Shown: positions 2,861-13,069 of the stretch, piece after piece
How positions within the stretch are numbered: the first letter of the stretch is position 1
Layout of the letters: every line of letters starts with the position of its first letter
From: Amphritea sp.
Lineage (GTDB): Bacteria > Pseudomonadota > Gammaproteobacteria > Pseudomonadales > Balneatricaceae
Reading direction: 5' to 3'
Assembly: GCF_016744155.1 (NCBI RefSeq)
Contig: NZ_JADGEW010000006.1
Coordinates: 1 to 64,000 of the forward strand
DNA: 64,000 bases
Program-made: the position numbers and the translations under genes
Notes under the pieces: generated by a model
Told to the model about the DNA's origin: nothing
What the model saw: the letters and a program-made list of their open reading frames with translations, nothing else
Databases searched by the model: none

Positions 2861-3214
2861 TTAGATAGTGTCATCATCAGTAAGAATAGAGTTCGCAAGA
2901 GAACGTTTTTCCGGGCTGGTATCGTAAGCTGAACGTGCGAGTTTACGGGTCAGGAGCTTCTGTTGCGCGGCTTCTGGAAGGTCAGTAAACAGGATGGTGT
3001 TTTTTGAGATTAATAGCTCGATAAGATCCTCAATGATTCGGCTGACATCAGCATCTGATTTTTCCAAAAACTCTTGAGGGCTGCTAGCTTCATTGCTGTT
3101 GGATAGGAAGCTTACAACTTCAGGATCAGTTATATCCGCTACGGCAGAGTTGCCAACCTGATGCATTGACAGAGAAGTGATCTGTCCCTGTTCATTTCTG
3201 ATTGCGTAGAGCAT
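2861..3214 (-). CDS. Small conserved protein often named 'tryptophan synthase beta-like'
   Basis: A 117-residue acidic cytosolic protein of a family common in Pseudomonas relatives that is often mislabelled as tryptophan synthase beta-like. It shows the family signature: an N-terminal MLYAIRNEQGQI strand segment and a C-terminal helix with LIELLISKNTILFTDLP followed by AAQQKLL and a basic patch. The frame stays open to 3355, but the upstream part looks non-coding and the family begins at MLYAIR, so ATG 3214 is chosen; its ribosome site is weak. Function is unknown. It lies between a plus-strand regulator and the divergent mevalonate operon. Confidence 0.7.
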   Translation of the reverse strand: MLYAIRNEQGQITSLSMHQVGNSAVADITDPEVVSFLSNSNEASSPQEFLEKSDADVSRIIEDLIELLISKNTILFTDLPEAAQQKLLTRKLARSAYDTSPEKRSLANSILTDDDTI

Positions 3215-3313
3215 ATCCTGATTTCCGCTGTTGTCTGGTTTAGTAAAGGCGCAAGTATGGCTGGGGTTATTCTGGGTGGTCAAGTCTGAACTGGCAGATT
3301 GAGTACAAAAGGT

Positions 3314-3346
3314 AAGGCCTGCTGAATTACTCACCCGACAGGCCTT
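3314..3346. repeat. Inverted repeat abutting the mevalonate promoter
   Basis: AAGGCCTG at 3314-3321 is mirrored by CAGGCCTT at 3339-3346 with 17 bases between. The right arm touches the putative -35 box of the mevalonate operon. It could be an operator or a terminator for minus-strand RNA; neither is proven. Confidence 0.45.
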
Positions 3347-3374
3347 TGATTGCATATTAAGCAGCGGCTATATA
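3346..3374 (+). promoter_or_regulatory. Putative sigma-70 promoter of the mevalonate operon
   Basis: TTGATT at 3346-3351 and TATATA at 3369-3374 are 17 bases apart. Transcription would start near 3381, giving a leader of about 87 bases with no evident leader peptide. Position and spacing fit, but the -35 is only moderately good. Confidence 0.5.
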
Positions 3375-3403
3375 AAATCCCCACTCAATACGAGCTTCCT
3401 AAA

Positions 3404-3451
3404 GGGGTGCAGTGCAGATCAATCCAAAATTGATCGCGGCAGCCCTTTTTT
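3404..3451 (+). terminator. Terminator-shaped hairpin in the mevalonate leader (candidate attenuator)
   Basis: The inner stem is perfect: GATCAAT (3417-3423) with ATTGATC (3429-3435) and a 5-base loop. An outer stem pairs GGGGTGC (3404-3410) with GCAGCCC (3439-3445) with one G-G mismatch. Six T follow at 3446-3451. It ends 16 bases before the mvaA ATG. The nearest plus-strand gene upstream ends at 2832 with a minus-strand gene between, so premature termination of the operon's own leader, or a short leader RNA, is the simplest reading (inference). Confidence 0.6.
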
Positions 3452-3467
3452 ATTGTGTCGAGAGATT

Positions 3468-4505
3468 ATGAAATCCCATAAAGTTCAGCAAGCCCCCATT
3501 CCTATGCGGACAGTAGGTCCGATTAAAATTAGTGGGCATGTCCTTAACGAAAAGATAGCGGTACCACTGGCTACTTATGAAACTCCTCTTTGGCCCTCTG
3601 TTGGCCGGGGAGCCCGAATCTCGGTGCTGGCAGAGGAGGGAATTAAAACGACGGTTATTGATGAGCGGATGAGTCGCTCTATTCTGCTGGAAGCTGATGA
3701 CGCTTTAGAGGCGCTTAAAGCGCTTGAATCGATTAAAGCCCGTAAAGATGATCTTAACGAGGTTGTAGCAACAAGCAGTCGTTTCGCAAAATTAATCGAT
3801 ATGAACAGTCAGATTGTCGCCAATCTGATCTACCTGAGACTTGAATTTAATACCGGTGATGCGTCGGGGCATAATATGGTGACTAATGCCGCCGATAAGT
3901 TGATTCCCTGGATTCTTGAAGAGTACCCACAGCTTCGCTATTCATCTATTTCTGCTAATTACTGTTCCGATAAGAAGGCCACAGCGGTTAACGGTATTCT
4001 CGGTCGCGGTAAGTATGTAGTGAGTGAGATTTTGATCCCCCGGGATGTTTGCGAGCGACGCCTTAAGACTACACCTGAAAAAGTGGTTGATCTTAATATT
4101 AAGAAAAACCTGATTGGTACTATTGTGGCGGGTGGCTTACGCAGTGCGAATGCCCACTTTGCTAATATGTTATTGGCGTTTTACCTGGCGACGGGGCAGG
4201 ATGCCGCTAATATTATTGAAGGCTCGCAGGGTATTGTGCACGCGGAAGTACGTGGCGGAGACCTGTATTTCTCATGCACATTGCCCAACCTTATTATGGG
4301 TAGTGTGGGTAACGGTAAGGGAATCGACTTTGTTGAGGAAAATCTCCGTAAGCTAGGTTGTAAAGATGACCGGGAACCGGGCGCGAATGCACGTCGTTTG
4401 GCGGCTATCTGCGCTGCGACGGTACTCTGTGGAGAGCTTTCTTTGATGGCGGCTCAGACCAACCCGGGTGAGTTGATGGAATCTCACCTTAAAATGGAAC
4501 GCTGA
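3468..4505 (+). CDS. mvaA: Hydroxymethylglutaryl-CoA reductase, class I type
   Basis: Reduces HMG-CoA to mevalonate with two reduced nicotinamide cofactors. The 345-residue protein has the catalytic set in order: E38 in ATYE, the lysine of SDKK (169-170), D245 in GQDAA and H340 near the C-terminus in ESHLK. The nucleotide-binding stretch NTGDASGHNM (128-137) resembles the class I DAMGMNM motif. These features look like class I (archaeal or eukaryotic style) rather than the class II of cocci; this is judged by eye. ATG 3468 is preferred over an in-frame TTG at 3453 because a GAGAG site precedes it. First gene of the mevalonate operon; its stop overlaps the next start. Confidence 0.93.
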   Translation: MKSHKVQQAPIPMRTVGPIKISGHVLNEKIAVPLATYETPLWPSVGRGARISVLAEEGIKTTVIDERMSRSILLEADDALEALKALESIKARKDDLNEVVATSSRFAKLIDMNSQIVANLIYLRLEFNTGDASGHNMVTNAADKLIPWILEEYPQLRYSSISANYCSDKKATAVNGILGRGKYVVSEILIPRDVCERRLKTTPEKVVDLNIKKNLIGTIVAGGLRSANAHFANMLLAFYLATGQDAANIIEGSQGIVHAEVRGGDLYFSCTLPNLIMGSVGNGKGIDFVEENLRKLGCKDDREPGANARRLAAICAATVLCGELSLMAAQTNPGELMESHLKMER

Positions 4506-5536
4506 TGTCTGATCAGACTAATGATCGAAAGATAGAACATATCAGGGCAATTGAAAACGATCCGTTAACAGATCGGGATGGGCGCTATTTTGATCAAATC
4601 CAGCTGAGCCACCGAGCACTGCCAAATCTAGCGTTGGATAGTATTGATACTTCGGTTGAGTTTCTCGGGAAGAAGCTGAGTTTTCCACTGCTTATCTCTT
4701 CGATGACCGGTGGTGACCATACGCTGATTAAAACTATCAATCGTAATCTGGCGGAAGCAGCTGAGCGCACCGGAGTTGCATTAGCGGTGGGCTCTCAGCG
4801 TGTTATGTTTACCCAGCCAGCGTCCCGTGAAAGTTTTGATCTGCGCCGTTATGCGCCTAGTACTGTGTTGCTGGGTAACATAGGAGCGGTACAGCTTAAT
4901 TATGGTTTTTCTTTGGAGCAGTGTCAGCAGGCGGTAGAGCTGTTAGGGGCTGACGGGCTATATTTGCATCTCAATCCACTGCAGGAAGCGGTACAGCCGG
5001 AAGGTGATACCGATTTTTCTGAACTTCAGGCAAAAATTGCCGCAGTTTCAGCGGGTCTGAATGTGCCTGTTCTACTAAAAGAGGTAGGGGCAGGGCTTTC
5101 TCCGCAGGATATCGAGGCGGGTCTGTCCGCCGGTATCAAGTGGTTTGATCTGGCGGGTTGCGGCGGTACCTCCTGGAGTAGAATAGAGCATCATCGGGGT
5201 GCGGATAGGGGTGATGATCTGGGGCTTTGTTTCCAGGATTGGGGTATTCCCACTCCTCAGGCGCTAAAATTGGCCCAACCCTATCAAAATAGTGCAGGTT
5301 TCATCGCTAGCGGCGGTCTCAGGGATGGGATTGATATGGTTAAATCTGTTATACTCGGCGCCTCGCTGTGCGGCATGGCCGCTCCCTTCCTCAAACCCGC
5401 GATGGATTCTGCGGATTCTGTGGTTAAGGTGATAGAACAGCGCCGGCGTGAATTCACCACAGCGATGTTTTTGCTGGGCATGCCGGATGTGAATAGTTTA
5501 TTTATGAATCGGGCTCTCATTCTGGGCGAGCGTTGA
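4505..5536 (+). CDS. fni: Type 2 isopentenyl-diphosphate isomerase (FMN-dependent)
   Basis: Interconverts IPP and DMAPP using reduced FMN and Mg. The 343-residue TIM-barrel has the family marks: SSMTGG (65-70), the phosphate and metal loop NPLQE (157-161, with Q160 the expected catalytic residue and E161 a metal ligand), LKEVG (191-195), DLAGCGGTSW (215-224) and the FMN phosphate loop SGGLRDG (269-275). The start overlaps the mvaA stop in a TGATG arrangement, showing translational coupling. It provides the DMAPP that a mevalonate route cannot make directly, so the operon is self-sufficient for both C5 units. Confidence 0.95.
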   Translation: MSDQTNDRKIEHIRAIENDPLTDRDGRYFDQIQLSHRALPNLALDSIDTSVEFLGKKLSFPLLISSMTGGDHTLIKTINRNLAEAAERTGVALAVGSQRVMFTQPASRESFDLRRYAPSTVLLGNIGAVQLNYGFSLEQCQQAVELLGADGLYLHLNPLQEAVQPEGDTDFSELQAKIAAVSAGLNVPVLLKEVGAGLSPQDIEAGLSAGIKWFDLAGCGGTSWSRIEHHRGADRGDDLGLCFQDWGIPTPQALKLAQPYQNSAGFIASGGLRDGIDMVKSVILGASLCGMAAPFLKPAMDSADSVVKVIEQRRREFTTAMFLLGMPDVNSLFMNRALILGER

Positions 5537-5551
5537 GGATTTTAAGTACGT

Positions 5552-6718
5552 ATGTCCGTCGGTATTGATGAAATCAGCTTTTACACCTCTAATTATTTTC
5601 TGGATCTGAAGAACCTTGCAACGGTTCAGGAAATTGATGCTGAAAAGTATTATCAGGGGATAGGCCAAGAAAAAATGGGCATGCCTGCCCCGGATGAAGA
5701 TGTAGTGACTATGGCTGCAAACGCTGCCCTGCCTCTCATAGAGCGGGTGGGTACAGATGCTATCAGCACTGTGATGTTTGCGACCGAGACTGGTATCGAT
5801 CAGTCAAAGTCTGCTGGTGTCTACGTTCACCGTTTGCTTGGTTTAACGCCGAATTGTCGCGTCGTTGAACTGAAACAGGCATGTTATAGCGCCACCGCAG
5901 CGATCCAGATGGCTTGTGCTCTTGTTGCTCGCCAGCCGGAAACGAAAGTGCTGGTGATTGCGTCAGATGTTGCCCGCTATGATTTGGGTACTTCCGGTGA
6001 GGCGACTCAGGGCTGTGGTGCTGTTGCGATGCTGATTACAGCGAACCCTCGTCTGGTTGAACTGGACCCCGAGGTCGGCAACCACACCGAAGATGTGATG
6101 GACTTTTGGCGCCCTAACTACCGTTCTACCGCACTGGTTGATGGTAAGTACTCCACTAAAATTTATTTGAAATCGCTGAAATATGCCTGGGCTCACTTCC
6201 GTGAAGTCAGCTCGGTGGCGTTTAGTGATATGCAACATTTCTGCTACCACCTGCCTTTTACCCGTATGGCTCAAAAGGCACATAAGCATCTGGCGCGTAT
6301 TAATCAGAGTAATCTGACACCCGAGCTGCTGGATCTTCAGGTAGAAGATACCCTGTTATATAACCGTATCATCGGTAATAGTTACACCGCATCGATGTAT
6401 ATTGGCCTGGCGTCACTGCTGGAAAACTGTAAGCAAAATCTGGCCGGTAACCGGGTAGGTTTTTTCAGTTACGGTTCCGGTTGCGTTGCAGAGTTTTTCT
6501 CAGGCACGGTTGTTGCCGGTTACGAGAACTACCTGCACAAAGACCGTCACCAGTTGATGCTAGAGGCACGTAGCGAAGTCTCTTATGATGAATATCTGAA
6601 GCTTTATAATGATGTCGATCCGGTTGATGGTGGCGAGCATGTTAAGGCTGAAGGTACCACCGGGCGATTCCGTCTAGTGGGTATCTCCCATCATAAACGT
6701 GAATACATCTCCTGCTAA
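5552..6718 (+). CDS. mvaS: Hydroxymethylglutaryl-CoA synthase
   Basis: Condenses acetyl-CoA with acetoacetyl-CoA to HMG-CoA. The 388-residue thiolase-fold protein has the catalytic triad of the bacterial enzyme at the expected positions: E79 in ATETGID, C111 in KQACYSA and H233 in CYHLPF. Length matches the bacterial family (about 385-390). It lies 15 bases after fni and 12 before the kinase. No acetoacetyl-CoA thiolase is in this window, so that activity must come from elsewhere in the genome. Confidence 0.96.
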   Translation: MSVGIDEISFYTSNYFLDLKNLATVQEIDAEKYYQGIGQEKMGMPAPDEDVVTMAANAALPLIERVGTDAISTVMFATETGIDQSKSAGVYVHRLLGLTPNCRVVELKQACYSATAAIQMACALVARQPETKVLVIASDVARYDLGTSGEATQGCGAVAMLITANPRLVELDPEVGNHTEDVMDFWRPNYRSTALVDGKYSTKIYLKSLKYAWAHFREVSSVAFSDMQHFCYHLPFTRMAQKAHKHLARINQSNLTPELLDLQVEDTLLYNRIIGNSYTASMYIGLASLLENCKQNLAGNRVGFFSYGSGCVAEFFSGTVVAGYENYLHKDRHQLMLEARSEVSYDEYLKLYNDVDPVDGGEHVKAEGTTGRFRLVGISHHKREYISC

Positions 6719-6730
6719 GGAACCCTCTTC

Positions 6731-7732
6731 ATGAAGGCGTGTGCCCCGGGTAAGCTGATTCTCAGTGGTGAACACTCAGCAGTTTACGGGGCCCCGGCTA
6801 TCGCTTTGGCGGTAAACCGTTATATCAAATGCAATGCAGAACAGACTCAAACCGACGGCCTTAGTTGGCATCTGCCTGAAGCGGGTTGGCAAGGGCACAT
6901 CGGTTGGTCAGATCTGCGTCAGTTAGTCTCCTACCTCGATTATCGTTTTAGCCTCTTTGAAGCGGGTGAATTAACGGCCGGTGATATCCTTGAAGCGCCT
7001 CAGCAGTTGGCTTTGTATGCTTTGGGGCTGTGTCTGCCTGACGCTTCTCCTGAAACTGGATTGCAGCTGGAGATCTATTCTCAATTGCCGCTCGGATCAG
7101 GTATGGGTTCTTCCGCAGCGCTGGGTGCCGCGGTTACCTCTCTCGGTCAAAACCTCTTTTCTAAACCTTTCAATACCGCTGAGCTTTTTCAACGGGTGCG
7201 TTACTGTGAACGCCTGTGTCATGGGCGTGGCGGGCTCATCGATGCCGCGACCGTGAGTTATGGTGGTCTTGTGAAGGTCACTAACGGTCAGGTTCAGCCA
7301 TTGTCGCTACAGCTGGGTGCAGGTTGGTACTATATTCACAGTGGAACACCTGAAGCCGGCACCGGCGACTGTGTCGATTTTGTCCGTAGTCGTTTCGGCC
7401 AGTCTAGTATCTGGCAGGATTTTAGTGCGATTACCAAACAGCTGACGGATGCTATCGTTAAAGGTGATGACCCCCGTGAACTACTTAGGGAAAATCATCG
7501 CCTATTAACTCAGATCGGGGTAGTGCCAAAACCGGTCCAGCAGTTTATTGCTACGGTTGAACAATTGGGTGGTGCTGCGAAAGTGAGCGGAGCCGGTTCT
7601 GTTAAGGGTGTTGGGGCCGGTGCTTTGATCGCCTATTCTCCAGAGATCGACCTTGCAGAGCTTTGTGAACAAAACGGTTATTCAATCATGGCGATTGAAG
7701 AGGACAGTGAAGGAGCCCGTCTTGAAGATTAA
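6731..7732 (+). CDS. GHMP kinase, probable mevalonate kinase
   Basis: A 333-residue GHMP kinase likely to phosphorylate mevalonate at the C5 hydroxyl. It has the N-terminal APGKLILSGEHSAVYG (5-20), the ATP loop LPLGSGMGSSAALG (119-132), the likely catalytic D171 within HGRGGLIDAATVSYGG, and a C-terminal KVSGAGSVKGVG motif. The first and third motifs favour mevalonate kinase over phosphomevalonate kinase. The end overlaps the next gene by 11 bases. Assignment between the two operon kinases rests on motif reading only. Confidence 0.8.
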   Translation: MKACAPGKLILSGEHSAVYGAPAIALAVNRYIKCNAEQTQTDGLSWHLPEAGWQGHIGWSDLRQLVSYLDYRFSLFEAGELTAGDILEAPQQLALYALGLCLPDASPETGLQLEIYSQLPLGSGMGSSAALGAAVTSLGQNLFSKPFNTAELFQRVRYCERLCHGRGGLIDAATVSYGGLVKVTNGQVQPLSLQLGAGWYYIHSGTPEAGTGDCVDFVRSRFGQSSIWQDFSAITKQLTDAIVKGDDPRELLRENHRLLTQIGVVPKPVQQFIATVEQLGGAAKVSGAGSVKGVGAGALIAYSPEIDLAELCEQNGYSIMAIEEDSEGARLED

Positions 7733-8663
7733 AGTCACAGCCCCTGGTAGTCTGATGTTGATGGGGGAGCACGCAGTCTTGTTTGGGCAGCGGGCGCTGG
7801 CCTGTGCAGTGGACAAACGTATCGCGGTCACGCTAACTCCTCGCACAGATCGCAACGTTAATATCGATTCAGCTTTGGCTCAGTACCACTCGAGTCTTGA
7901 CCCGTTGAAGTCTGAGCCGGCGCTCAGTTTTGTTCTGGCCGCGATAGAGCGCCAGGCTGCACGGTTACCGAGTGGGTTCGATCTGCAGATACGTTCTGAA
8001 TTTTCTCATACCGTGGGGTTGGGTTCTTCTGCGGCGGTAACGGTGGCGGTTGTGACCGCGCTGCAAGCTTATACAGGCAGTAGGTGTGAAGATCAGCAGG
8101 CGCTGTTTAATGAAACCCTGGCGGTGGTCCATCAGGTGCAGGATGGTCGGGGGTCAGGTACCGATCTGGTAGCTGCGGTCTTTGGAGGTGTGGTTGGGTA
8201 TACCGTTGCCACTGCCGATACCGCCCCTCAGATACGGGCATTGCAGGGCATACCCACTATTAGCCTTTTTTACGTCGGTTATAAGATGAAAACCCCGGAT
8301 GTATTGAAGCGGGTTGAAGGCTTCTCGGCTCAGTCGCCGGAACTCTATGCTGAACTGTACCGCTTGATGGGGCAAACCGCCGAGCAAGCCGAATTGGCTG
8401 TGGATAACACGGACTGGCCGCAATTTGGTCGCCTGATGAATATCTACCAGGGACTAATGGATGCGCTGGGCGTAAATGACCGCAACCTGGCCGAGATAAT
8501 CTATGCATTAAGAAGTTCTCCAGATGTCCTTGGTGCCAAAATATCCGGTTCAGGCCTGGGTGATTGTGTTCTGGCTCTAGGGAACCCATCAGACTATCAG
8601 TTATCTTATGAACAAATACCTGTGGCTGTTTCTCAGAAGGGTGTGACCGTTGAATATATCTAA
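7722..8663 (+). CDS. GHMP kinase, candidate phosphomevalonate kinase
   Basis: A 313-residue GHMP kinase with TAPGSLMLMGEHAVLFG (6-22), the ATP loop HTVGLGSSAAV (96-106), GRGSGTDLVAAVFGG (142-156) and a C-terminal GAKISGSGLGDC. The N-terminus is mevalonate-kinase-like, but GSG-x-D recalls phosphomevalonate kinases; since the pathway needs that step and a probable mevalonate kinase lies upstream, phosphomevalonate kinase is inferred. The start is a TTG at 7722, chosen because AGGAG lies 6 bases before it and the homologous region begins there. It overlaps the previous gene by 11 bases, so it is probably translationally coupled. It could be a second mevalonate kinase or another mevalonate-phosphate kinase. 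Confidence 0.65.
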   Translation: MKIKVTAPGSLMLMGEHAVLFGQRALACAVDKRIAVTLTPRTDRNVNIDSALAQYHSSLDPLKSEPALSFVLAAIERQAARLPSGFDLQIRSEFSHTVGLGSSAAVTVAVVTALQAYTGSRCEDQQALFNETLAVVHQVQDGRGSGTDLVAAVFGGVVGYTVATADTAPQIRALQGIPTISLFYVGYKMKTPDVLKRVEGFSAQSPELYAELYRLMGQTAEQAELAVDNTDWPQFGRLMNIYQGLMDALGVNDRNLAEIIYALRSSPDVLGAKISGSGLGDCVLALGNPSDYQLSYEQIPVAVSQKGVTVEYI

Positions 8664-9669
8664 AGACAGCTCTAAAGCTATCACTAAAGAAAGCGTAATC
8701 GAACGCTATCTGCCAGCTACTGTAGTGCCGGTGGCGGACAGCATAGATACCGTATTTGCACCGAGCAATATTGCCCTGTGTAAGTATTGGGGTAAGCGTG
8801 ATGCTGAGCTTAATCTGCCGATTAACAGCAGTTTGTCGATATCTCTTGCCCATCTGGGTAGTAAAACCCGTATCTCGGTTAGCGATACTGATCAGGTCTG
8901 GCTGAATGGCAATTTGGTGGCTGCGGATGATAAGTTTTCCCGCAAAGTTATCAACTTTATTGAGCTGTTTCGCCGTGGTGCCGCTCACCCAGTTAAAGTA
9001 GAAACCGAGAATAATATTCCTACCGCTGCCGGATTGGCCTCATCCGCTTCCGGCTTTGCGGCATTGATGCTGGCGGTTAACGCTTTCTATGGCTTGGATT
9101 TGGAGCCTCAAGTGCTGTCCGCTTTTGCCCGTATGGGTAGTGGCAGTGCTAGTCGTTCCCTCTATGAAGGCTTTGTCGAATGGCAGATGGGAGTTCGCGA
9201 AGATGGTATGGATAGCTTTGCGCTGCCGTTAACGAGTCGCTGGAGCGATTTGAGAATCGGCCTGGTAAAGGTGAGCACCGGAGAGAAGGCAGTAGATTCC
9301 CGTTCAGGCATGAATCGGACAGTAGATACCGCTCACCTGTATCAGAGTTGGCCATTGCAGGCAGCGGCGGACCTTGAACGATTACACCGGGCGATTGCCG
9401 ATCAAAATTTTACTCTATTGGGTGAAACCGCCGAGCAAAACGCGCTCTCTATGCATGCAACGATGATAGCTTCCTGGCCGCCGTTACTCTATTGGCAACC
9501 GGACTCCGTCGCTGCAATGCAAAGCATCTGGCAGGCAAGGGCAGAAGGCGTCGAGCTCTATTTCACTATGGATGCGGGGCCGAATATAAAACTATTGTTT
9601 ACCGCTGATGCTGAAGCTGAAGTTATACAGCGTTTCCCTGGCCTGGAGGTTGTTGCCCCCTTTGGCTGA
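8650..9669 (+). CDS. mvaD: Diphosphomevalonate decarboxylase
   Basis: ATP-dependent decarboxylation of 5-diphosphomevalonate to IPP, the last step of the mevalonate route. The 339-residue GHMP protein has the diagnostic SNIALCKYWGKRD (39-51), the ATP loop PTAAGLASSASG (124-135), GSGSASRSLYEGFVEW (163-178) and the C-terminal TMDAGPNIKLL. These fit the decarboxylase closely. The start is TTG 8650, with an AAGGG site upstream and a 14-base overlap with the preceding kinase. The N-terminus is about 35 residues longer before the first motif than in cocci, so a slightly later start is possible. Confidence 0.92.
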   Translation: MNISKDSSKAITKESVIERYLPATVVPVADSIDTVFAPSNIALCKYWGKRDAELNLPINSSLSISLAHLGSKTRISVSDTDQVWLNGNLVAADDKFSRKVINFIELFRRGAAHPVKVETENNIPTAAGLASSASGFAALMLAVNAFYGLDLEPQVLSAFARMGSGSASRSLYEGFVEWQMGVREDGMDSFALPLTSRWSDLRIGLVKVSTGEKAVDSRSGMNRTVDTAHLYQSWPLQAAADLERLHRAIADQNFTLLGETAEQNALSMHATMIASWPPLLYWQPDSVAAMQSIWQARAEGVELYFTMDAGPNIKLLFTADAEAEVIQRFPGLEVVAPFG

Positions 9670-9673
9670 GCCA

Positions 9674-12055
9674 ATGCGGTCTAATCAGCCTAAGTCTGGG
9701 GAACATAGCGAAGCCAGCGGCTTTATTCTCACGCGTCAGCAGTTTGATACTTCTGAGGGAATTAGCTTTCAGTTTTGGCTGAAAGGTCCTCAGGGTGCAT
9801 TTCCCGTTACGGTGGCTGGTCAGGAAGCGGTCTTCTTTGTCCTCGAAGAGGATTTTCCCCGAATCGAGCCATTACTCGAACCTGTTACCGATTGGCGCTT
9901 AAAACCCCTACCTCTGAAAGATCTTGAACAACGTTCCATCTGTGGCATTTACAGCCGTTCAATCGCCACCTATCGAAAACTGACAGACCTGTTGCAGACC
10001 TATGGTATCTCGATGATCGAGGAGGATATACGTCCTGTTGATCGTTTTCTCATGGAGCGTTTCATTCAGGATAGTGCCCGGGTGCGTTTCTCTGAAAATT
10101 CGGCACAACTGCTACCGACAGATTATGACCCTCAGCTGACGATGCTATCGGTGGATATTGAAACCACGATGCGGGCAGACCGAATTTTCTCCATTGGACT
10201 CTATTCAGACCGATACAGTAAAGTGCTGATTGTCGGCGAGGGGCCGAATGAACCCTGGCTAGAGTATGTAAACGATGAGCGAGCATTGCTGCAGGCGTTT
10301 ATTCGGGAAGTAGAACGCTGTGATCCCGATATATTCATCGGTTGGAATGTCGTCGGGTTCGATTTTCGGGTGTTGGAAGAACGGGCCCGAAGACTCCAGG
10401 TGCCCATGAATCTGGGCCGTGATCGCAGTCGTATACAGGTTATTCAGTCGGGCAATGGGAAGTGGTTTTGCCGTATTGCCGGACGGGTGGTGCTGGATGG
10501 TATCGATACCCTGAAGGGCGCAACCTATCAATTTGAAAGCTTCTCCCTTGAGAATGTCTCTAATCAACTACTGGACAGAGGCAAGTTGCTCGGTCATCAG
10601 CAAGATGATGGACTCACCCTAAATAAGGGGGAAGAGATTCAGCAGGTTTACCGGGAAAACCCCCGTCAGTTGGCAGAATATAATCTGGAAGACTGCAAGC
10701 TGGTCTGGGATATATTTGAACACGCTAAGTTGCTTCATTACCTGATAGAGCGCAGTCGTTTGACCGGTCTGCCATTAGATAAGGTGGGCGGTTCTGCGGC
10801 TGCTTTTGATAATCAGTATCTGCCTCGTCTGCATCGCAAAGGTTATGTTGCTCCTGTGTATGCCTCCGGTGAATCGCAGATGGGCGCCCCCGGCGGTTAT
10901 GTAATGGAATCCCGGCCCGGTCTCTATAATCAGGTACTGGTGCTGGACTTTAAGAGCCTGTATCCCAGTATTATTCGTACTTTCATGATCGATCCTTTTG
11001 CATTGGCGGAAGGGACCGGCACCGAGTGTCCCCCGGAAGAGTTGGTGCCGGGTTTTAATCACGCCATTTTTAATCGTAAAGAGGCGATACTGCCCGGTAT
11101 TATCGAACGGCTGTGGCAGGCAAGAGATCGTGCAAAAGCTGAAAAGAATGCGCCGTTGTCCCAGGCGATTAAGATCATCATGAATAGCTTTTATGGGGTA
11201 CTCGGCTCCAATGTTTGTCGCTTCTTTGATCAGCGTCTTGCCGGCTCAATTACCCTGCGAGGCCACGAGATTCTCATCCGTACCCAGGAAAAAATCGAGG
11301 AAGAGTTTGGTTACCAGGTGATCTATGGCGATACCGACTCGGTGTTTGTCTGGCTGGGAGATGATTTCCCTTTGGATAAAACCCAGCAAGAGGGGCGTCG
11401 CCTGGAAATCTTTCTTAATCAGTGGTGGCAGGAAGAGGTGCAACAGCGTTTCGGCTTGCCCTGTCATCTGGAACTGGAATACGAAACCCATTACCGACGT
11501 TTTTTTATGCCGACCATGCGAAACTCTGAGAAAGGCACTAAGAAGCGTTATGCGGGTATTCGTCATTTTGTCGATGGCAGTGAAGAACTCGTTTTCAAAG
11601 GGCTTGAAACGGTACGCTCAGACTGGACGCCCCTGGCACGAAGGGTGCAGCGAGAGCTTTACCGGTTAATTTTCAGTGATACACCCTATACCGATTACCT
11701 TAAGCAGATCGTTATTCAGATGAAAGCGGGGGAGTTGGATGAAGAGCTGGTTTATCGTAAACGCCTGCGCCGCCCGTTAGATGAGTACAGTAAGAATCGT
11801 CCGCCCCATGTGCAGGCGGCCCAAAAACTATTTGACCATCTTTCTAAAAGAAGAAAGTTGGATACTTTCTCTTCCGGGACTTATATCGAGTACCTGATCA
11901 CTGTGAATGGCCCAGAACCGGTCTCTATCACAACCTCTTTAATCGATTATCAGCACTATTTTGATCGCCAGTTGGTGCCTATCGCCGATGGAATATTGAT
12001 GTTCATGGATGACAGTCTTGATGGCATCGCCGCTCCCCAGATCAGTCTTTTCTGA
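9674..12055 (+). CDS. polB: DNA polymerase II, family B
   Basis: A 793-residue family B polymerase with 3'-5' proofreading; in Escherichia coli the 783-residue homologue is an SOS-induced repair polymerase. The N-terminus has GFILTRQQFDT, as in PolB. Exonuclease motifs: D161 and E163 in SVDIET, GWNVVGFD (223-230), and YNLEDCKLVWD. Polymerase motifs: DFKSLYPSI starting at residue 425, NSFYG, and the catalytic YGDTDS (551-556). ATG 9674 is chosen because upstream codons overlap mvaD; it lies 4 bases after the mvaD stop. No LexA box is evident just before it, so it probably rides on the mevalonate transcript. Confidence 0.95.
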   Translation: MRSNQPKSGEHSEASGFILTRQQFDTSEGISFQFWLKGPQGAFPVTVAGQEAVFFVLEEDFPRIEPLLEPVTDWRLKPLPLKDLEQRSICGIYSRSIATYRKLTDLLQTYGISMIEEDIRPVDRFLMERFIQDSARVRFSENSAQLLPTDYDPQLTMLSVDIETTMRADRIFSIGLYSDRYSKVLIVGEGPNEPWLEYVNDERALLQAFIREVERCDPDIFIGWNVVGFDFRVLEERARRLQVPMNLGRDRSRIQVIQSGNGKWFCRIAGRVVLDGIDTLKGATYQFESFSLENVSNQLLDRGKLLGHQQDDGLTLNKGEEIQQVYRENPRQLAEYNLEDCKLVWDIFEHAKLLHYLIERSRLTGLPLDKVGGSAAAFDNQYLPRLHRKGYVAPVYASGESQMGAPGGYVMESRPGLYNQVLVLDFKSLYPSIIRTFMIDPFALAEGTGTECPPEELVPGFNHAIFNRKEAILPGIIERLWQARDRAKAEKNAPLSQAIKIIMNSFYGVLGSNVCRFFDQRLAGSITLRGHEILIRTQEKIEEEFGYQVIYGDTDSVFVWLGDDFPLDKTQQEGRRLEIFLNQWWQEEVQQRFGLPCHLELEYETHYRRFFMPTMRNSEKGTKKRYAGIRHFVDGSEELVFKGLETVRSDWTPLARRVQRELYRLIFSDTPYTDYLKQIVIQMKAGELDEELVYRKRLRRPLDEYSKNRPPHVQAAQKLFDHLSKRRKLDTFSSGTYIEYLITVNGPEPVSITTSLIDYQHYFDRQLVPIADGILMFMDDSLDGIAAPQISLF

Positions 12056-12184
12056 CTTTTTACTTCTCTTCTCTGCGTAAAGTTGATGATATTCTGATCG
12101 GTAATGATGAGGGCTTGAAGGTTAGAATGTGGACTGGCAATTAGATGAGGTGATCAAGATACGTATCTCTACTGGCGAGAAACC

Positions 12185-13069
12185 GTGACACTGACGGCAT
12201 TTATATTGATTTTAATCTCTGCATTGTTTCATGTGGGTTGGAATCTGATCGGCAAAAGGGTTGCGCAAACGCTGCTTTTCTATATCTGGGCGATGGCGGC
12301 AGGTGGGTTGATGTTCAGCCCGATTCTTATTTTTCATGATGTTCGATTGATGGGGCTTCCAAGGGATTTCTGGTGGTTGCTCTGTTGCTCCGGCTTGTTT
12401 CAGGGGCTCTATCTTATCGGCTTAGCACGGGCCTATCGTTCCGGGGATATGAGTATGGTGTATCCCCTGGCTCGGGCGCTACCGGTAATTCTGGTACCGC
12501 TGGTAATCGTGATCCTCCACGGCAGTACTGCGGTTACCGCTGTTGAAGGCCTGGGAATGTTGTTGATTCTGACTGGTGCGATCGCCTTGCCTCTGAGCCG
12601 CTGGAAAAACTGGCGCCCCAGGTTCTATCTGCAACCGGTGATGTTCTGGGTTCTGCTCGCAGCGGCGGGTACTGCAGGTTACTCCATCGTTGATAGTATG
12701 GCGCTGAAGATTATGCGCGATACAGGTATGAGCGCGTTTCAGGCGGGCAGTAGTTTTGTTGTACTGCAGGCTGTGACAACGGTTAGCTGGATGGTTCTGC
12801 TGATTGGCATGATACCGGGCGAGCGACTCAGGGGGCTGCAACAGAAGAGGATGGCCATATTGGCCGGTGTCTTTATCGTCGGCACCTATATGCTGGTGCT
12901 GACCAGTATGACTCTGGTTACAGAAGTCAGCTATGTGGTGGCCCTGCGACAGATCAGTATCCCACTGGGTGTGATTATCGGTGCAATCTGGCTGCAAGAA
13001 AAAATGAGTCTGCCCCGTATTCAAGGCACAGTGTTAATGCTAACCGGTCTGCTGCTGGCTTCTATTTAA
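12185..13069 (+). CDS. EamA/DMT-family inner-membrane transporter
   Basis: A 294-residue membrane protein with about ten hydrophobic segments in two similar halves, as in the drug/metabolite transporter superfamily. The second half has the typical ending of a charged loop (QEKMS) before a last helix. The substrate cannot be read from sequence; export of an amino acid or small metabolite is common in the family. The start is a GTG at 12185 with a GGCGAG stretch upstream. Gap of 129 bases after polB; no terminator seen between them. Confidence 0.8.
   Translation: MTLTAFILILISALFHVGWNLIGKRVAQTLLFYIWAMAAGGLMFSPILIFHDVRLMGLPRDFWWLLCCSGLFQGLYLIGLARAYRSGDMSMVYPLARALPVILVPLVIVILHGSTAVTAVEGLGMLLILTGAIALPLSRWKNWRPRFYLQPVMFWVLLAAAGTAGYSIVDSMALKIMRDTGMSAFQAGSSFVVLQAVTTVSWMVLLIGMIPGERLRGLQQKRMAILAGVFIVGTYMLVLTSMTLVTEVSYVVALRQISIPLGVIIGAIWLQEKMSLPRIQGTVLMLTGLLLASI

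Follow-up and report, generated by a model that had tools for sequence, protein, structure and literature searches.

Mevalonate (MVA) genes have been described from several lineages of the Gammaproteobacteria. Coxiella burnetii and Legionella pneumophila were reported to hold MVA genes without MEP genes, and Teredinibacter turnerae was named among the MVA carriers (PMC9803151). MVA was also reported to be present in Wenzhouxiangella (PMC7691419), and the HMG-CoA reductase (HMGR) of Legionella clusters with those of Borrelia, Flavobacteria and Lactobacilli (PMC13370337). A survey from 2026 described a recognisable phosphomevalonate kinase (PMK) as missing in all Legionella analysed and asked about alternative enzymes; it also listed several Streptomyces with HmgR alongside a complete MEP pathway (PMC13001223). 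A related mevalonate cluster was already published for Marinobacterium and 'Candidatus Liberibacter', with conserved gene order and >50% identity between the two, for which transfer was proposed (PMC5291501). The available passages of that article deal neither with family-wide MEP loss and DXS nor with the short HMGR and the question of the PMK. Marinobacterium was among the near relatives carrying the operon analysed here. The likeness to Liberibacter was taken from the published description, as was that to Legionella, Coxiella, Teredinibacter and Wenzhouxiangella, which are MVA carriers likewise. The operon of the marine bacterium Amphritea sp. adds a member to these published clusters.

The window, i.e. 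the whole stretch of 64,000 nucleotides that was analysed, contained a plus-strand run of six ORFs in the order hmgR-idi2-mvaS-mvk1-mvk2-mvaD, spanning positions 3468-9669. The six ORFs with the functions named in the initial annotation were confirmed by profile matches. All 20 other family loci fetched have the same gene order, a recurrence that puts the operon far beyond chance. The order was also found in 61 of 81 named loci. The operon start had been placed at 3346, which was wrong, as no possible start codon exists there. Although the frame has no stop codon from about 3303 onwards, its first ATG, GTG or TTG is TTG 3453, and the likely start is ATG 3468. A longer HMGR was rejected because of this lack of an earlier start codon and because all but one of 20 family proteins begin with MKxHK. 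An ORF on the minus strand was located 5' of the hmgR start, at 2861-3355.

The gene hmgR (3468..4505) encodes a short class I-type HMGR of 345 aa and overlaps by 1 base with idi2/fni (4505..5536), encoding a type 2 isopentenyl-diphosphate isomerase (IDI) of 343 aa (TIGR02151 359 bits, cut-off 281; PDB 2zru 222 bits). After a gap of 15 bases follows mvaS (5552..6718) for an HMG-CoA synthase of 388 aa (TIGR01835 513 bits, cut-off 360; PDB 3v4n 329 bits). A gap of 12 bases separates it from mvk1 (6731..7732), which encodes GHMP kinase 1 with 333 aa. The second GHMP kinase gene, mvk2 (about 7722..8663), probably starts at TTG 7722, preceded by AAGGAG, which gives an overlap of 11 bases; the first possible start of its ORF is 7653. 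It overlaps by 14 bases with mvaD (8650..9669, TTG start), encoding a diphosphomevalonate decarboxylase of 339 aa (TIGR01240 308 bits, cut-off 171; PDB 5v2l 232 bits). The products of idi2, mvaS and mvaD thus each exceeded the curated cut-off. All six genes are probably co-transcribed. DNA polymerase II, which does not belong to the mevalonate genes, is encoded on the same strand by polB (9674..12055; NF004421 1015 bits), with a likely ATG 4 bases 3' of mvaD. It may share the operon transcript. Among the 20 family loci, 17 have polB as the next gene after the operon, and one further locus was cut by a contig end. Scans for promoters (9 promoter-like sites, 10.7 expected) and terminators (13 sites, 9.3 expected, sd 3.1) were near chance and uninformative on transcription, and the composition of the sequence did not shift clearly at the operon.

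Amphritea and its family very probably make IPP and DMAPP through this operon, and most likely by no other route. As predicted from the protein matches, MvaS would form HMG-CoA, which HmgR would convert to mevalonate. Kinase 1 would yield mevalonate-5-phosphate and kinase 2 mevalonate-5-diphosphate, from which MvaD would produce IPP, and the type 2 IDI would convert IPP to DMAPP. The family ancestor would have acquired the operon and lost all of the MEP pathway, the usual bacterial route, except DXS. This enzyme would afterwards have become shorter by about 16-38 residues within a single internal stretch, and the operon would have descended mainly vertically since then. With 16 genera that exchanged one pathway for the other yet retained a single orphan enzyme, the family would be a natural experiment. 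A statement of this family-wide replacement was not found in the titles and abstract openings searched.

The HMGR of the window scored 282 bits with PF00368 (cut-off 27), the match beginning at profile position 40 of 368, and 278 bits with TIGR00533, under the cut-off of 442. Its alignment to human HMGR begins after the N-terminal domain, so that this domain with its ENVIG-type Glu is absent, and all 20 family loci likewise encode a short enzyme. The N-terminal Glu is regarded as catalytic in class I HMGR. The four full-length HMGRs from Gammaproteobacteria that were compared do have a Glu there. K170, D245 and H340, which we take to be catalytic residues, were invariant in 24 short HMGRs; K170 and D245 align with human HMGR and H340 was placed by the C-terminal SH motif. 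In all 24, an invariant His lies in GDA[SA]GHNM (GGAAGHNM in one row), whereas the human enzyme has GMNM. The predicted fold matches human and archaeal enzymes, with a TMq of about 0.75 to human HMGR. This model was moderate (mean pLDDT 75.5; segments 162-180, 222-224 and 246-253 under 50), and no residue-level conclusion was drawn from it. By its sequence, the family enzyme belongs to class I but is short, lacking both the N-terminal domain and the Glu located there. The initial statement that catalytic residues look intact was correct for three HMGR residues (Lys, Asp and His) but failed for the N-terminal Glu of this enzyme and for the motif-1 Lys, which kinase 2 lacks; integrity of the other enzymes was judged by whole-length matches only. 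Among the observations that count against the operon as the isoprenoid route are the HMGR without the Glu regarded as catalytic, the two kinases scoring under the model cut-off and, as described below, weak Dxr and IspG matches, three family loci with no mvaD close by and a genome with broken operon genes.

With TIGR00549, the mevalonate kinase (MVK) model with a cut-off of 163 bits, kinase 1 reached 137 and kinase 2 159 bits. The family profile of kinase 1 scored 217 against the actinobacterial MVK and 144 against the PMK, and the protein of the window retains APGKLILSGEH and CERLCHGRGGLID. Profile and motifs favour kinase 1 as most likely the mevalonate kinase. Kinase 2 was the sole match to the PMK model TIGR01220 in the window's genome, with a score of 60-64 bits that is under the cut-off of 166. 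Its loop GRGSGTDL resembles KGSGGDL of the Streptomyces PMK, making it a candidate non-canonical phosphomevalonate kinase. It is rather unlikely, but deserves weight, that kinase 2 acts as a further mevalonate kinase or is some other GHMP kinase, with the true PMK unrecognised elsewhere or the route running via phosphomevalonate decarboxylase and isopentenyl phosphate kinase. The higher score with the MVK model points that way, as do the nearest solved structures by sequence, which are mevalonate kinases (6mde, 4hac, 8teb), and a kinase 2 profile that is nearly level between actinobacterial PMK (194) and MVK (189). No canonical PMK exceeded the cut-off in 18 genomes searched, but none of the 14 control genomes did so either, so that a score below the cut-off is weak evidence against a canonical PMK elsewhere. 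On the other side, the motif-1 Lys of both actinobacterial kinases is missing from kinase 2 in 20 of 20 aligned proteins, while the signature of kinase 1 is MVK-like. No other protein of the window's genome matched the PMK model, MvaD scored 308 as the diphosphate enzyme and 130 with the phosphomevalonate decarboxylase model, and kinase 2 was found in 20 of 20 family loci. As a putative PMK, kinase 2 offers a testable candidate for the enzyme that some MVA pathways of Gammaproteobacteria reportedly lack. Neither this candidacy nor the short HMGR was found stated in the titles, abstract openings and passages searched.

Within the family, mvaS exceeded the cut-off in 112 of 116 genomes and was matched in 16 of 16 genera, one of which (g3) has a broken gene only. 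HMGR of some kind occurred in 73 of 369 sampled Gammaproteobacteria. These counts do not support the initial view of the mevalonate set as a rarity. A sample of the order contained mvaS in 17 of 341 genomes, 15 of which were all 15 family members sampled, and Dxr in 298. A phylum-wide search with the HMGR alignment matched 10 of 219 genomes, all of the same class and none of them Alphaproteobacteria. The HMGR of the window was 99% identical to one from an Amphritea MAG. The operon tree had 14 of 26-27 splits in common with the argG tree (at most 2 in 300 label shuffles) and 38 of 53 with the polB tree (at most 3 in 300), which argues for mainly vertical descent within the family. Outside the family, 326 genomes of the order were sampled, and prokaryotic-type HMGS exceeded the cut-off in two of them. 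On these trees and counts, the replacement is family-wide and no private acquisition by this Amphritea. In three family loci, two of Marinobacterium and one of Nitrincola, no mvaD was located within 3.9 kb after mvk2. Four of the six operon genes were broken in one family genome (G018), in which neither Dxr nor IspG was found, reflecting either an assembly error or a pathway that can be lost.

The hmgR and mvaS genes of Streptomyces and Microbacteriaceae nested inside the family (bootstrap 97-100; AU p 0.026-0.036). The Actinomycetota rows formed one clade (100/100), and the next branches below it were Balneatrix and Pokkaliibacter (100/100, then 98/92 and 97/91). The HMGR-only and mvaS-only trees both placed the actinobacterial rows with these two genera. 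This suggests a donor of the actinobacterial pair near Balneatrix and Pokkaliibacter, and the clearest transfer seen would go outward, from the family to Actinomycetota. The direction depends on the rooting alone; the outgroup was not on one side of a branch in one tree (G589 was elsewhere) and the bootstrap was not settled in another. The reverse, with Actinomycetota as donor of the hmgR-mvaS pair and Balneatrix and Pokkaliibacter or the whole family as recipient, is unlikely. In its favour are this dependence on the rooting, the two tree weaknesses just named, the test in which Balneatrix and Pokkaliibacter held together were not rejected (AU p 0.39), and 17 Streptomyces plasmid records with a short HMGR of 63-68% identity, which show that mobile actinobacterial copies exist. 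The position of the actinobacterial clade inside the family and the agreement of HMGR and mvaS speak against it. Moreover, Balneatrix and Pokkaliibacter fall within the family on the other four genes and share its operon order, and the actinobacterial kinases, mvaD and idi2 are only 23-44% identical to those of the window. A plasmid copy of S. xanthophaeus (L242), which we take to be a Streptomyces CL190-type cluster, likewise has a short HMGR (353 aa, 68% identical to that of the window) adjoining mvaS, clustered with type 2 IDI, MVK and decarboxylase. It differs in its order mvk-mvaD-pmk-fni-hmgR-mvaS and in having its own canonical PMK (TIGR01220 503 bits). If the tree with an outward transfer holds, Streptomyces-type terpenoid clusters would owe their HMG-CoA synthase and reductase to marine gammaproteobacteria, a claim not found in the titles, abstract openings and passages searched.

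The lineage-specific replacement proposed in the initial annotation was borne out by the MEP searches. The window's genome, a draft (99.6% complete, 48 contigs), had no match to the DXR C-terminal domain, and of the MEP enzymes searched it contained DXS, with Dxr and IspD to IspH not found. Neither Dxr nor IspG exceeded the curated cut-off in any of 116 family genomes, and 9 of 14 control genomes were positive in each search. Weak matches to Dxr (E about 9e-4) in two family genomes and to IspG in one were all far below the cut-off. Queries with E. coli DXS, IspD, IspE, IspF, IspG and IspH recovered DXS alone in the 20 family genomes tried and all six proteins in G116, G118, G187 and G351. That the operon is an accessory supply next to an overlooked MEP pathway is extremely improbable: the draft state of the genome and G351, a genome of the order combining all MEP genes with an HMGS-like gene, would allow it, but a hidden pathway was rejected on the Dxr, IspG and E. 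coli-query searches, and the recovery of DXS indicates that such searches work in family genomes.

DXS exceeded the cut-off in 104 of the 116 family genomes. Its product feeds thiamine and pyridoxal (vitamin B6) synthesis, and the family presumably retains it for these cofactors. The DXS of the window's genome (G000:C29:436489-438072, a 598-aa frame) is shortened in an internal stretch that corresponds to E. coli residues 186-249. All 32 Dxr-positive genomes measured had 64-65 residues in this stretch, compared with 26-48 in each of the 18 family genomes measured. Its length was 23-52 in four further lineages that carry MVA genes (G332, G317/G392, G401 and G589). We tentatively propose, with prospects a little short of even, that after a switch from MEP to MVA, DXS vanishes or persists for cofactors only, minus part of this stretch. 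On this view, the stretch would be a module that isoprenoid flux requires, be it for end-product control, for partner contact or for dosage, but that is dispensable for making DXP. If so, the switch would be a natural experiment separating two jobs of DXS, and the trimmed enzyme would mark a part of the MEP entry enzyme that may matter for isoprenoid supply only. The trimming was not found stated in the titles, abstract openings and passages searched. Among MVA carriers, G733, which like G589 was outside the Dxr searches, retained a DXS stretch of 65 residues.

The six-gene run reported in the initial annotation was recovered in full by profile matches on a single strand, with the order hmgR-idi2-mvaS-mvk1-mvk2-mvaD (3468-9669, forward). 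The start of hmgR had been placed at 3346 and was read instead at ATG 3468, or at TTG 3453 at the earliest. The first two genes overlap by 1 base, the next two junctions are gaps of 15 and 12 bases, and the last two are overlaps, of 11 and 14 bases if kinase 2 (mvk2) starts at TTG 7722, a candidate start preceded by AAGGAG. The DNA polymerase II gene polB (9674-12055) starts 4 bases past mvaD and was located directly downstream of the operon in 17 of 20 loci of the same family; one more locus, L085, ended too early. The operon is real and looks functional. It had been considered unusual, but is ordinary within its family, where mvaS matched at E <= 0.001 in 114 and exceeded the cut-off in 112 of 116 genomes from 16 genera, and such clusters are already known. 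The interest lies in its surroundings: an orphan, trimmed DXS, a non-canonical kinase 2 and a link to actinobacterial clusters.

The window corresponded to contig C20, from an assembly of 4.15 Mb with 99.6% completeness. Its HMGR was 99% identical to that of an Amphritea MAG (L162). Among named loci, the nearest came from Amphritea, Marinobacterium, Neptuniibacter, Neptunomonas, Nitrincola, Motiliproteus, Osedax symbiont Rs2, Pokkaliibacter and Balneatrix. We take the family (f1) to be Nitrincolaceae, a name borne by one contig title among these loci. Contig DDLT01000079.1, titled Lentisphaeria bacterium UBA2565 (L215), also carried a six-gene operon with 78% identical HMGR, reflecting either misbinning or another transfer.

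The MEP pathway is most likely replaced by the mevalonate pathway family-wide. Dxr and IspG were over their cut-offs in none of the 116 family genomes, with two and one weak matches, respectively. DXS was retained, with 104 of 116 genomes over the cut-off and 115 matching, although weak matches may be other transketolase-like enzymes. The lineage-specific replacement proposed initially, with a search for dxs, dxr and the isp genes, was thereby supported. Using six E. coli MEP proteins as queries, DXS was found in all 20 family genomes searched (of 116), and the other five proteins were not found in these 20; all six were found in G116, G118, G187 and G351. In the order sample, Dxr was over the cut-off in 298 of 341 genomes and mvaS in 17, comprising 15 family members and the genomes G439 and G332 of two other families. 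The latter two showed the same six-gene order as the family and were not among the Dxr-positive genomes. Four genomes of f39 (G153, G189, G217 and G383; 97-100% complete) were likewise not Dxr-positive and held no HMG-CoA synthase over the cut-off; the search with the six MEP proteins gave only weak transketolase-like matches in them.

In most of the matches listed, alignment of the family DXS broke into two segments around a gap at about profile positions 190-230. The stretch was measured between NDNxM[SA]I and YxGPx[DN]GH, anchors that were picked after the gap was seen. It comprised 64 residues in E. coli (186-249) and 64-65 in all 32 Dxr-positive genomes measured, drawn from 32 of the order's families. 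Pattern matching gave the length in 30 of these, and letters were counted in the two whose anchors differ; control G126, on a fragment, was excluded. Full MEP content among the Dxr-positive genomes was checked in the four genomes carrying all six proteins. All 18 family genomes measured had a stretch of 26-48 residues, read by pattern in 17 and by counting in the other. Beyond the family it was 36 residues in G401, 23 in G589, 35 in G332 versus 65 and 64 in G120 and G351 of the same family (f6), and 52 in G317 and G392, of one genus, versus 64 in G130 of the same family (f16). G733 was an apparent counter-case, with a short-type six-gene operon yet a stretch of 65 residues; among these mevalonate carriers outside the family, the Dxr search covered G332, G401, G317 and G392. 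Fisher's test comparing the family, G332, G317/G392 and G401 with 30 control families gave p = 2e-5, rising to 1e-4 when G733 was set against the trend; the test excludes G589, and its lineages are not fully independent. DXS was not over the cut-off in 24 of 30 non-family genomes of the mevalonate type searched.

The window HMGR was of the short class I type, with a Pfam match beginning at profile position 40 and a score below the TIGR00533 cut-off. The active-site Lys, Asp and His and the His of the GHNM motif were invariant in an alignment of 24 short HMGRs; the N-terminal domain and a counterpart of the ENVIG Glu were absent from the aligned short HMGR. HMGR was present in 73 of 369 sampled Gammaproteobacteria, about 30 of them with the short type as read from the match table. 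The AlphaFold model of the window protein (mean pLDDT 75.5) gave a TMq of about 0.75 against human HMGR. Streptomyces likewise has a short-type HMGR (353 aa), and the CL190 enzyme has reportedly been purified and found active.

Both kinases scored below their NCBIfam cut-offs. Kinase 1 (mvk1) kept a signature like that of mevalonate kinase, and its family profile scored 217 against actinobacterial MVK and 144 against PMK. The kinase 2 profile was near-equal for PMK (194) and MVK (189). None of the 20 aligned kinase 2 rows had the motif-1 Lys, and the consensus loop of kinase 2, GRGSGTDLAASxYGG, resembled that of Streptomyces PMK, KGSGGDLAASTWGG. No PMK-model match over the cut-off was obtained in 18 genomes (the window's own, 11 congeners and six of other families) or in 14 controls; Streptomyces PMK scores 503 on this model. 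Kinase 2 was the only PMK-model match in the window genome. By elimination, it is likely a non-canonical phosphomevalonate kinase, a candidate from sequence comparison. In a 2026 survey, PmvK was reported absent from all Legionella analysed, and alternative enzymes were raised as a question (PMC13001223).

Of the splits in the tree of the six joined proteins, 14 of 26-27 recurred in the argG tree (30 loci) and 38 of 53 in the polB tree (56 loci), versus at most 2 and 3 in 300 label shuffles, an agreement inflated by loci from the same or near-identical genomes in both sets. Since polB adjoins the operon, it is the weaker control. These trees suggest mainly vertical inheritance inside the family.

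Actinomycetota (Labedella, Pseudoclavibacter and kin) provided nine of 80 named loci, with 68-71% identical HMGR. They formed one clade grouping with Balneatrix and Pokkaliibacter in the HMGR, mvaS and joined trees. The cost of forcing the family together without them was 41.8 log units in one comparison (AU p 0.036) and 35.8 in the other (AU p 0.026), which is moderate evidence because the tested group was named only after the first tree was seen. Holding Balneatrix and Pokkaliibacter together was not rejected (p 0.39). The remaining actinobacterial pathway genes, where recognised, were only 23-44% identical to those of the window, and none was recognised in three Labedella loci. The hmgR-mvaS pair, rather than the whole operon, thus seems to have been transferred, probably outward from the family to Actinomycetota.

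Mevalonate clusters of Liberibacter and Marinobacterium are reported in PMC5291501, and the pathway in 12% of 4,249 species in PMC13001223, whose main text names neither Oceanospirill, Marinobacterium nor Nitrincola. 'Mevalon' was absent from the covered text of PMC9365125 and PMC10426996, on Amphritea and Neptuniibacter. The titles and abstract openings covered state no family-wide replacement, DXS trimming or donor claim; these may be in print elsewhere, such as in supplements or subscription journals.

All 20 family loci fetched showed the six-gene order, as did 61 of the 81 named loci, one Streptomyces plasmid included. The 20 remaining loci were ten Actinomycetota, seven that stop at the cluster or close to it, and three without mvaD. 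Marinobacterium L171 and L173 and Nitrincola L204 held five ordered genes with no mvaD or polB within 3.9 kb past mvk2; their mvaD may be elsewhere in the genome. The mevalonate cluster was of another kind in loci L067 (G317), L153 (G392) and L068 (G401), from two other families: it encodes a protein of 509-537 aa resembling HMG-CoA synthase, along with two GHMP kinases and a decarboxylase. These genomes were not among the Dxr-positive ones. G018, the sole genome of genus g3 (2.3 Mb, 96% complete), had a broken mvaS. In its locus L063 (G018:C4:338000-357000; operon at 6642-13025), hmgR, idi2, mvaS and mvk1 were in pieces, mvk2 and mvaD were open, and some long neighbouring frames (805 and 866 aa) were intact. 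DXS was present; Dxr and IspG were not found. The cause is either a local assembly error or genuine gene loss in a bacterium that depends on others. In another family genome (G085:C104:1486-2582), mvaS as assembled was in two pieces, with a TAG inside one. By domain scan, a 739-aa frame in L136 (G758, 7013-9232) fused HMG-CoA synthase with a mevalonate-kinase domain, and a 767-aa frame at the equivalent place in L137 (G543, 9636-11939) is probably the same fusion.
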